This document shows, piece after piece, positions 7,792 through 51,409 of a stretch of DNA of 64,000 bases. This DNA comes from Pacificibacter marinus (lineage in GTDB: Bacteria; Pseudomonadota; Alphaproteobacteria; Rhodobacterales; Rhodobacteraceae). The notes beneath the pieces are model-generated. The model was not told where the DNA came from. It saw nothing but the letters and a program-made list of their open reading frames with translations, and made no database searches. The DNA lies in NCBI RefSeq assembly GCF_018860665.1, contig NZ_JAHKPK010000025.1, positions 162,279 through 226,278 of the forward strand, written 5' to 3'. The first letter of the stretch is position 1. Each line of letters begins with the position of its first letter. A program made the position numbers and the translations under genes.

Positions 7792-8095
7792 ATAAATGCC
7801 CCCTCTGTCTAATTCCTCTTTGAAATAGGGCCAAATCCCCCCTGACACCACCTGTCAGCTCAGCTTTTTGACAAGAAGTTTTCATAGCGCCTCAAAAGTC
7901 CCCTAAAGCGCTTAAAAATAGGTCAGCACTTGCTATGCATTTTCTGCATGGCGGCAATGACCATTGGGTGGATTGTGCATCCGCAGCAATGCTCTAAATT
8001 CAGTATCAAGCAAGGCAGACAGCGACACAGCAATGAGCGCCAAACGCCAAGATACACACAAGGGCAAACGCCCACGCACTTAAGGTTTACAAACG
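7792..8095. other. divergent spacer between mrp and the DUF1127 gene
   Basis: About 300 bases without a supportable gene. It must contain the promoters for mrp (leftward) and for the DUF1127-CcsR unit (rightward). In R. sphaeroides the matching unit is driven by RpoH-type sigma factors. I could not pick out a convincing RpoH or housekeeping promoter by eye. Confidence 0.5.
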
Positions 8096-8311
8096 ATGGC
8101 ATACGCAAACGCATCACACACAGCTGACTTCGGTCTTGCAGGTCGTTTCAACGCAATCAAAAACTCTCTTGTTGAACGCGCAGCTCGTTACCGCGTTTAC
8201 CGCGAAACACAGGCAGAACTCGAAAATCTGTCCAATCGCGAACTCAGCGACCTAGGCCTCAGCCGCGCTGGCATCAAAGCCATCGCACTTGAAGCAGCCT
8301 ACGGCAACTAA
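8096..8311 (+). CDS. small DUF1127 protein (CcaF1-like)
   Basis: A 71-residue protein ending in a classic DUF1127 segment: YRETQAELENLSNRELSDLG followed by LSRAGI. In Rhodobacter sphaeroides the 71-residue DUF1127 protein CcaF1 is an RNA-binding protein encoded just upstream of, and co-transcribed with, the CcsR small RNAs. It influences their processing and stability. The same arrangement is present here: the stop at 8311 lies ten bases before the first CCTCCTCCC hairpin. A weak AAGG lies upstream of the ATG. The middle of the protein is Arg-rich, which fits nucleic-acid binding. The functional assignment is by synteny and family. Confidence 0.92.
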   Translation: MAYANASHTADFGLAGRFNAIKNSLVERAARYRVYRETQAELENLSNRELSDLGLSRAGIKAIALEAAYGN

Positions 8312-8321
8312 TTCTTATATC

Positions 8322-8346
8322 GGGCCCCTCCTCCTCCCTTGGGTCC
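8322..8346 (+). ncRNA. CcsR-type hairpin 1
   Basis: Stem GGGCCC/GGGTCC (one G-T pair) encloses a C-rich loop with CCTCCTCCC at 8330-8338. It starts directly after the DUF1127 stop codon. Confidence 0.7.
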
Positions 8347-8353
8347 TGATTAC

Positions 8354-8389
8354 GACGGCAGCGTCTTCCTCCTCCCTGACGCTGTCGAC
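8354..8389 (+). ncRNA. CcsR-type hairpin 2
   Basis: A twelve-base stem (GACGGCAGCGTC with GACGCTGTCGAC, one mismatch and one G-T) encloses the loop TTCCTCCTCCCT; the motif is at 8368-8376. Confidence 0.85.
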
Positions 8390-8404
8390 ATTTTTGGAAT
8401 TCAC

Positions 8405-8428
8405 GGCTTCCTCCTCCTCCCTGAAGCC
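8405..8428 (+). ncRNA. CcsR-type hairpin 3
   Basis: Stem GGCTTC/GAAGCC is perfect. The loop is CTCCTCCTCCCT with the motif at 8413-8421, an extended form with an extra CTC. Confidence 0.8.
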
Positions 8429-8439
8429 ATGAAGACCTC

Positions 8440-8471
8440 GCGGTGAAGTTTCCTCCTCCCTACTTCATCGC
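8440..8471 (+). ncRNA. CcsR-type hairpin 4
   Basis: Ten-base stem GCGGTGAAGT/ACTTCATCGC with one G-T pair. The loop TTCCTCCTCCCT carries the motif at 8452-8460. It is a near copy of hairpin 6, with a paired base change. Confidence 0.85.
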
Positions 8472-8475
8472 ACTT

Positions 8476-8496
8476 ATTCGGGCTTAACGCCCACAC
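8476..8496 (+). repeat. array spacer repeat, copy A
   Basis: ATTCGGGCTTAACGCCCACA followed by C, able to form GGGC/GCCC. It recurs at 8581-8601 with a single T-to-C change, showing that hairpins 4-5 and 6-7 arose by tandem duplication. Confidence 0.85.
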
Positions 8497-8502
8497 GGTC
8501 TT

Positions 8503-8532
8503 GGGTCCTTCCTCCTCCTCCCTGAGGGACTT
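8503..8532 (+). ncRNA. CcsR-type hairpin 5
   Basis: Stem GGGTCCTTC/GAGGGACTT includes three G-T wobbles. The loop is CTCCTCCTCCCT, with the motif at 8514-8522. Confidence 0.75.
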
Positions 8533-8540
8533 AAAGCAAG

Positions 8541-8574
8541 GCGGTGATGTCTTCCTCCTCCCTGACATCACCGC
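8541..8574 (+). ncRNA. CcsR-type hairpin 6
   Basis: A perfect eleven-base stem, GCGGTGATGTC/GACATCACCGC, encloses TTCCTCCTCCCT with the motif at 8554-8562. This is the most stable-looking member before the terminator. Confidence 0.88.
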
Positions 8575-8580
8575 ATAAAA

Positions 8581-8601
8581 ATTCGGGCTCAACGCCCACA
8601 C
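8581..8601 (+). repeat. array spacer repeat, copy B
   Basis: Second copy of the spacer found at 8476-8496, differing by one base in the loop of the GGGC/GCCC stem. Confidence 0.85.
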
Positions 8602-8608
8602 CTTCTTT

Positions 8609-8636
8609 GGTCTCTTTTCCTCCTCCCTAAGAGACC
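8609..8636 (+). ncRNA. CcsR-type hairpin 7
   Basis: A perfect eight-base stem, GGTCTCTT/AAGAGACC, with loop TTCCTCCTCCCT and the motif at 8619-8627. Confidence 0.83.
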
Positions 8637-8644
8637 TAAGGCAA

Positions 8645-8680
8645 GGTTGCTTCATCTTCCTCCTCCCTGATGGTGCAGCC
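8645..8680 (+). ncRNA. CcsR-type hairpin 8
   Basis: A twelve-base stem (GGTTGCTTCATC with GATGGTGCAGCC, one mismatch) encloses TTCCTCCTCCCT with the motif at 8659-8667. Confidence 0.83.
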
Positions 8681-8689
8681 TTAAGTCTA

Positions 8690-8714
8690 GAACCTGATCC
8701 TCCCATCATGGTTC
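8690..8714 (+). ncRNA. degenerate CcsR-type hairpin 9
   Basis: GAACC/GGTTC plus GAT/ATC pairing encloses a shortened CCTCCC. It looks like a decaying copy, with the loop motif reduced from nine to six bases. Confidence 0.5.
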
Positions 8715-8725
8715 GACAAAAAAAG

Positions 8726-8761
8726 ACACCCGCGCCCCTCCTCCCTGGCGCGGGTGTTTTT
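8726..8761 (+). terminator. Rho-independent terminator with CCTCCTCCC in its loop (hairpin 10)
   Basis: A perfect eleven-base stem, ACACCCGCGCC/GGCGCGGGTGT, is followed by a run of five T. The loop itself contains CCTCCTCCC at 8737-8745. It ends the DUF1127-CcsR transcription unit and may also serve as the last small RNA of the series. The bases 8762-8964 beyond it hold nothing I can identify. Confidence 0.9.
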
Positions 8762-8964
8762 CGTTTTATGGGACATATTTCATGTTGATGCTGCGAAAGA
8801 TCGCCAATTGCGATGCTCTACCGAAGCCAGGCTTCATCGCGCATTTATTTACAAAACATCTTGATGCTCGAGATCTTTCAAATCTTTAAGATAAGGGACG
8901 CCAAACGCGCCAGTGCAGTTTATTTGCCAACCGCATTTCGGCGCCCCTGAAAAGACGTTCAAAA

Positions 8965-19201: not shown

Positions 19202-19276
19202 GCGGGTGTAGCTCAGGGGTAGAGCATAACCTTGCCAAGGTTAGGGTCGAGCGTTCGAATCGCTTCACCCGCTCCA
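19202..19276 (+). tRNA. tRNA-Gly (GCC), copy 1
   Basis: The cloverleaf folds well: acceptor GCGGGTG/CACCCGC, D arm GCTC-AGGGGTA-GAGC, anticodon stem TAACC/GGTTA with loop TTGCCAA (anticodon GCC), and T loop TTCGAAT. CCA is encoded. GCC decodes the common GGC and GGT glycine codons. An identical copy follows at 19375. Confidence 0.97.
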
Positions 19277-19374: not shown

Positions 19375-19449
19375 GCGGGTGTAGCTCAGGGGTAGAGCAT
19401 AACCTTGCCAAGGTTAGGGTCGAGCGTTCGAATCGCTTCACCCGCTCCA
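19375..19449 (+). tRNA. tRNA-Gly (GCC), copy 2
   Basis: Identical in all 75 bases to the copy 173 bases upstream, with CCA encoded. The interval contains two small hairpins (CTCTCA/TGAGAG and TTTGGGT/ACCCAAA), probably part of the precursor. A terminator follows at 19469, so both copies are likely made from one transcript. Confidence 0.97.
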
Positions 19450-51259: not shown

Positions 51260-51409
51260 GGTTTATGTGATCCCAATAGCGTAAGGACCCGGTGAGAGCC
51301 CGGGTGGCTCTTCCGGCCGCTGATCCGCCGGACAACCCTGATAACTCCCAATATATACCGCAGACCGTCTCGTGAAAGACGTTCGTGCGCAGGGTAATGG
51401 ACTGACTAT
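51260..51409 (+). ncRNA. structured 5' leader of the SulP transporter gene (riboswitch-like)
   Basis: Three hairpins lie in a row: ACCCGG/CCGGGT (51287-51305), CCGGC/GCCGG (51313-51331), and an outer stem ACCCTG (51335-51340) with CAGGGT (51390-51395) that encloses CGTCT/AGACG (51366-51381). The outer stem's AGGG is 15 bases before the ATG, so folding could affect ribosome access. It does not match the riboswitch consensus sequences I can recall. Alphaproteobacterial motifs upstream of sulP genes, such as sul1 and nhaA-II, are candidates to test. Confidence 0.5.

Follow-up and report, generated by a model that had tools for sequence, protein, structure and literature searches.

Does the row of hairpins behind a small DUF1127 gene of a Pacificibacter-like member of the Rhodobacteraceae represent an exceptional expansion of a regulatory RNA, or is it an ordinary member of an operon family that is already known? 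An earlier note on the DNA analysed here, a stretch of 64 kb that we call the window, had favored the former, describing nine hairpins with a full motif and one decayed copy. The features of the locus are the following:

7934-7959, + strand: first half of a conserved upstream block, TATGCA-N5-TGCAT overlapping CTGCATGGCGGCAATG (7944-7959)
7973-8000, + strand: second half of the block, TTGTGCANNNGCAGC (7973-7988) with a probable -35 TTG, and a -10-like TAAATT (7995-8000)
8096-8311, + strand: ccaF1-like gene for a DUF1127 protein of 71 aa (PF06568, E 4.7e-11)
8319-8350, + strand: hairpin 1 (unit 1), by folding; CcsR1 model match at 8312-8393 (38.1 bits, E 1.5e-7)
8356-8387, + strand: hairpin 2 (unit 1), by folding and inverted repeat; double changes at 5 of 9 pair positions in six genomes
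8400-8433, + strand: hairpin 3 (unit 2), by folding and inverted repeat; CcsR1 model match at 8398-8476 (28.7 bits)
8440-8471, + strand: hairpin 4 (unit 2), by folding and inverted repeat
8480-8492, + strand: small spacer hairpin GGGC-TTAAC-GCCC without anti-Shine-Dalgarno (aSD) loop, by linker folding; a similar one follows hairpin 6
8501-8534, + strand: hairpin 5 (unit 3), by folding; CcsR1 model match at 8498-8579 (36.7 bits)
8541-8574, + strand: hairpin 6 (unit 3), by folding and inverted repeat
8605-8640, + strand: hairpin 7 (unit 4), by folding and inverted repeat; CcsR1 model match at 8601-8684 (26.5 bits)
8643-8682, + strand: hairpin 8 (unit 4), by folding
8690-8714, + strand: hairpin 9 (unit 5) with the short loop CCTCCC, by folding and from its counterparts in relatives
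8722-8761, + strand: hairpin 10 (unit 5), combining an aSD loop with an intrinsic terminator, by folding, inverted repeat and TTTT statistics

Anatomy and family of the array

A motif search of the window located nine exact copies of CCTCCTCCC in the array, all on the + strand (8330, 8368, 8413, 8452, 8514, 8554, 8619, 8659 and 8737), where 0.23 per 64 kb are expected by chance and none of 100 dinucleotide shuffles reached nine. Folded individually, all nine sites and a tenth at 8690-8714 form hairpins that present the motif in the loop (-10.7 to -26.2 kcal/mol), and with the DUF1127 domain in front of them the basic layout described in the earlier note is confirmed. The DUF1127 protein has a 96% identical counterpart in Pacificibacter marinus. 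An inverted-repeat search found the arms of hairpins 2, 3, 4, 6, 7 and 10 among the 25 longest of 34 pairs, while a simple terminator scan, which covers loops of up to 8 bases, did not list hairpin 10. The assertion that nearly all hairpins present the same 12-base loop holds for half of them: TTCCTCCTCCCT is identical in five of the ten, CTCCTCCTCCCT forms the loop of three more (in hairpin 1 the fold is shifted by one base), and the remaining two loops have 10 and 6 bases. The 11-mer TCCTCCTCCCT is present at eight of the ten sites. Hairpin 9, with the 6-base loop, is not simply decayed. Its stem consists of nine pairs with one bulge, the same short loop occupies this position in Pacificibacter marinus L011, and a TCCTCCC loop is found there in the same-genus genome G157. 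The counterpart in G212 and G246, assigned by eye from position and stem, is a full-loop hairpin on a similar stem. A script counted short-loop (TCCTCCC) hairpins within or next to 8 of 55 arrays, an undercount because its rule missed the 6-base loop of the window itself.

These 55 loci were hand-picked from Rhodobacterales loci with at least two motifs, and high-copy genomes were chosen deliberately. Where a genome was already represented, its second locus was left out (L139-L145, L147, L148), as were L114 and L135, which resemble L113 and L133. Also excluded were motif groups in which the first pattern used detected no DUF1127 gene (L095, L098, L105-L110, L112, L118, L126), and L091, although a DUF1127-like frame precedes its two motifs. 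Six loci were kept despite the lack of a first-pattern call (L017, L040, L111, L116, L117, L131), including the similar-looking L116 and L117. One sequence pattern detects a DUF1127-like frame upstream of 49 of the 55 arrays, and a looser one does so for the other six.

Start-to-start spacing alternates between smaller and larger in 319 of 356 cases in these arrays, compared with the two thirds expected for a random series, and stem arms share on average 10.7 and 11.4 of 22 positions at lags 2 and 4, whereas the values for lags 1 and 3 are 7.2 and 8.3. The repeating unit therefore consists of two hairpins, with stems related within each position class, and the notion of stems of unrelated sequence has to be given up. 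In the window, the two most similar units are 3 and 4 (71%). Folds more stable than those of base shuffles were obtained for 88 long linkers (spacing 58-80 nt; mean -10.0 vs -5.35), and in the examples printed out this folding was mostly due to a small extra hairpin; some linkers contain a short-loop aSD hairpin. TTTT follows the last hairpin with an exact motif in 44 of 55 loci but other hairpins in only 9 of 465, so that the last hairpin apparently doubles as terminator.

An Rfam 15 scan at gathering thresholds listed nothing at the array. With relaxed thresholds, the CcsR1 model (RF02791, 83 nt, two hairpins) gave four consecutive full-length matches (model positions 1-83) with E values of 1.5e-7 to 3.9e-4 and 26.5-38.1 bits, below the gathering score of 65.3, and the ar14 model (RF02344) matched three times, the best match (8639-8762) reaching 57.7 bits and thus not the gathering score of 58.8, so that we did not assign the array to ar14. 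On this basis, the array can be read as four CcsR units followed by a fifth hairpin pair, and CCUCCUCCC is present in the loops of all eight hairpins of units 1-4. Elsewhere in the window, a sul1 RNA (Rfam RF03058) was detected at 51282-51337 with 75.1 bits (gathering score 36.2), and two nearby tRNA genes with equal scores lie at 19202-19273 and 19375-19446.

In Rhodobacter sphaeroides, ccaF1 (RSP_6037) is co-transcribed with CcsR1-4 from an RpoHI/RpoHII promoter, with a terminator at the operon end, and CcsR maturation involves RNase E and CcaF1 (PMC10253847, in excerpt). The window array resembles this operon in having the DUF1127 gene first on the same strand, two-hairpin units with CCUCCUCCC loops in the 3' UTR and a terminator-like hairpin at the end; it differs by one more terminal pair and by scores under the gathering cut-off. 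In the window array, the terminator hairpin itself carries an aSD loop. The association of DUF1127 with CcsR has been labelled CIN1 and the family named cuckoo RNA (PMC10253847, PMC4504443, both in excerpt). Its traits, several hairpins, a conserved loop, free stems without conserved sequence and an adjacent DUF1127 gene, are all present here, using the definition of Reinkensmeier and Giegerich (2015) as relayed by excerpts of secondary sources (PMC4504443, PMC10253847). However, cuckoo RNAs were described there with 2-4 hairpins, whereas the window has ten in a row and a relative up to 23 exact motifs. The ar14/NfeR1 RNA of Sinorhizobium shares three hairpins with the same CCUCCUCCC loop, but is a three-hairpin sRNA with a sigma-70 signature (PMC10746234, in excerpt), while the window hairpins are part of a DUF1127 operon. 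The DUF1127 domain and the CcsR1 matches, although the latter stay below threshold, speak for the family assignment that the earlier note had made, and we consider it very probable that the array belongs to a ccaF1-CcsR (CIN1, "cuckoo RNA") operon of a Pacificibacter-like member of the Rhodobacteraceae. Anatomy, unit structure, stem covariation, a family match below threshold, the make-up of the terminator and the range of copy numbers are what our data show directly.

Copy number among relatives

The excerpted description of RS0680a (CcsR) from R. sphaeroides includes two aSD stem-loops (PMC3927594), and because each CcsR RNA carries two, CcsR1-4 amount to about eight hairpins. The comparison of ten with four, from which an unusually high copy number had been deduced, mixed RNAs with hairpins. 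As a measure of copy number, we used a pattern of two motifs 15-45 bases apart, taking the larger count of the two strands, in an even sample of 292 genomes of the order, chosen from a larger group. At least one close pair was present in 262 of the 292. With 5 pairs, the genome of the window is above the median of 3, but the maximum is 19; 85 genomes, including that of the window, have 5 or more and 66 have more than 5. A backwards control pattern produced up to 6 matches in some genomes and none in G152, G015 and G114, which have the three largest counts. Four same-genus genomes contain 4, 5, 6 and 6 pairs.

Nineteen named loci with arrays, which we take to be Rhodobacterales from record names, contain 2 to 16 exact motifs with a median of 9, the number of the window. 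The same number is thus the norm among relatives, which is the outcome that the earlier note itself had named as refuting its claim. The loci were fetched by similarity to the window DUF1127 protein, and R. sphaeroides is not among them. L018, whose two motifs precede the gene, and the array-free L025, L028, L029 and L080 are not counted; L012 may be truncated by a contig end. Across the 55-locus set, array length spans 2 to 23 exact motifs, and very long arrays were read in L136 of G152 (23), L133 of G114 (20), L137 of G222 (17), and L125 of G236, L134 of G019 and L078 (16 each). Counts differ even under one species name, with 8, 14 and 10 in Salipiger bermudensis and 14 and 12 in Pseudooceanicola marinus. 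An exceptional expansion, selected for extra dose in the lineage of the window, would fit the 5 close pairs against the order median of 3, but is hardly credible given 66 genomes with more pairs, the 23 motifs of L136, the 4-6 pairs within the genus and the median of the named loci. The array is on the larger side, but not unusual.

Thirty genomes without close pairs were inspected at their best DUF1127 locus, which may be another DUF1127 paralogue, and no array with a changed loop was found there; one of these loci (L170) has a single TCCTCCC-loop hairpin. The usual order is reversed in L105, L107 and L109 (G008, G272 and G142), where groups of CCTCCTCCC lie upstream of a DUF1127-like gene. 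The gene before these groups is presumably a tungstate-type ABC transporter binding protein gene.

Selection, transcription and possible function of the loops

With the motif constrained to stay unpaired, all 520 sites of the 55 arrays fold at or below -8 kcal/mol (mean -20.1). When each right arm was swapped for that of another hairpin, chosen at random within the array, 289 of the 520 sites remained at or below -8 (mean -9.6), and the native arm outperformed the swapped one in 494. Among six genomes of the genus, of which the window and L011 are nearly identical, double changes that keep pairing were observed at 27 of 54 pair positions of hairpins 1-6, a count that is flattered since the arm offsets were optimised for pairing and are not the same in all genomes, above all in hairpins 1 and 3; hairpins 2, 4, 5 and 6 alone have such changes at 14 of 36 positions. 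These compensatory changes support selection on the RNA, and the proposal that a constant loop on variable but paired stems points to selection was substantiated in this respect.

Upstream of the gene, TTGTGCANNNGCAGC is exact in 50 of 55 array loci, and in 47 of 55 a CTGCATRGCRG-like element precedes it, at a distance of 29 bp in 31 loci, 28 in 13 and 20 in 3. RpoHI/II promoters have a -35 TTG and a -12 TAT (PMC10673084, figure legend), and judged by its sequence the second half of the block may contain the -35 TTG of a promoter of the RpoH type; a scan for sigma-70-type promoters found nothing at 7973-8000. The 16-mer pattern of the first half has one exact place in the genome, its own in the window, and 180 places with up to two mismatches, compared with 46 for a control. 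The first half resembles the PhaR site, given as CTGCNNNGCAG for R. sphaeroides (PMC12542648, in excerpt): on a matrix built from 61 phaP sites, its score is reached at only 8 of 127,962 window positions, while the poor score of the second half is reached at 332. CTGCNNNGCAG itself occurs in the first half of 18 of the 50 loci that have the second half, but the window reads CTGCATGGCGG. We did not assign PhaR as regulator of the array promoter, since the centre is of the wrong base class: in the array loci it is usually AT-purine, whereas a third-place purine occurs in none of the 61 phaP sites. A 16-codon ORF at 8034-8084 was considered as an attenuator like the one described for a DUF1127 gene of Sinorhizobium meliloti (PMC12218461, in excerpt), and discarded because its start codon is absent from four of six aligned genomes, being present in the window and L011.

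Expression, processing, targets and dose effect are the parts of the operon reading that we infer. One transcript would comprise the message for the DUF1127 RNA-binding protein and a 3' UTR with four two-hairpin CcsR units and a fifth pair, the last hairpin of which would end transcription. By analogy with R. sphaeroides, the transcript would be driven by a stress promoter and cut into small RNAs by RNase E with the help of the DUF1127 protein. The loops, copying the ribosomal anti-Shine-Dalgarno sequence, would then pair with G-rich ribosome-binding sites and block translation. Array length would mainly set the number of loops per transcript and may drift by gain or loss of whole units. Searches for targets singled out no gene: GGGAGGA-N3-10-ATG occurs at 81 places in the genome (control pattern 9), and exact 9-mer complements precede a few ORFs. 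For R. sphaeroides, flhR has been named as a target (PMC8307010).

Two other functions of the hairpins have to be weighed against antisense pairing. The loops might mainly form a protein-binding or decoy platform that soaks up the DUF1127 protein of the same operon or another RNA-binding factor, with antisense pairing as a secondary role. The DUF1127-like frame upstream of all 55 arrays and the reported RNA binding of CcaF1 and its part in the maturation of CcsR (PMC10253847, in excerpt) would be compatible with such a platform, but we regard it as unlikely, as the loop is exactly anti-SD and the same core recurs in single hairpins behind phaP. Far less probable still is that the hairpins are only 3'-end protectors or terminators and that the loop repeats spread by duplication at the DNA level without RNA function. 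Terminator-like last hairpins and counts that shift between close genomes agree with this explanation, but it leaves unexplained why the loop stays exact while stems change with compensation and why a U tract is rare after all but the last hairpin. We therefore retain pairing of the aSD loops with ribosome-binding sites as the preferred reading.

A related hairpin behind the phasin gene

The genome of the window contains 15 copies of CCTCCTCCC outside the array. Ten of these were folded, and in one case a hairpin loop held the entire motif, at a place immediately after the phasin gene phaP and before its terminator (L005:1026-1560, C12 of this genome). Such hairpins were also noted in L194-L199 and L209-L237. 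We compared 35 phaP loci, namely those of the six genus genomes and 29 of 30 further loci from a search that matched 118 of 121 genomes; L202-L208, which repeat loci already included, and the other phasin matches L200 and L201 were omitted. Within 120 nt after the phaP stop, TCCTCCC was present in 28 and CCTCCC in 32 of the 35 loci, against 0.89 (maximum 4) and 3.64 (maximum 9) in base shuffles of this stretch. Controls taken 200 nt further on and on the opposite strand contained neither sequence; for bare CCTCC, the control further on gave 3. The full CCTCCTCCC is present behind phaP in 8 of 35 loci. In all 31 testable cases, a hairpin with six or more spanning pairs forms around the motif (mean -17.0 vs -8.7 with swapped arms), on stems that vary among loci. 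An Rfam search of eight phaP loci gave no match at E 0.1 or better. In the library searched, we found no report of an sRNA linked to phaP or phasin; one S. meliloti paper, in excerpt, treats the induction of phaP1, and PMC8625941 names neither phaP nor phasin.

Upstream of phaP, two or more CTGCNNNGCAG sites are present in 26 of 35 loci, and in each of the 29 loci that have both genes (L199 and 28 others), phaR, the gene of the PHB-sensing repressor, comes next on the same strand. Among these 29, GGGAG, which is complementary to the loop of the phaP hairpin, precedes phaR in 27 and CCTCCC follows phaP in 26, both being present in 25 and neither in G157. As a baseline, GGGAG is found at -20 to -4 of 3 in 35 long ORFs of the window, a contrast that is indicative only, since the stretch before phaR is longer and the genomes are related. 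It is conceivable, though we rate it as rather doubtful, that the Rhodobacterales use the anti-SD hairpin as a portable cassette in 3' UTRs, beyond its role in CcsR: PHB would lift PhaR off phaP, the hairpin released from the phaP transcript, with its usual TCCTCCC loop, would silence translation of phaR through the matching GGGAG-type Shine-Dalgarno sequence, and a positive loop for granule coating would result, using a loop code shared with the stress array. The phaP-phaR circuit is a candidate reading based on sequence, not a demonstrated one.

The operon at this locus is of a kind already known, well conserved and of unremarkable size; what is new is one more member of the family and a corrected anatomy. 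Because array length varies widely, also within one species name, dose effects are testable in a natural series. If confirmed, the hairpin behind phaP would carry the loop code beyond stress RNAs into the control of carbon storage.
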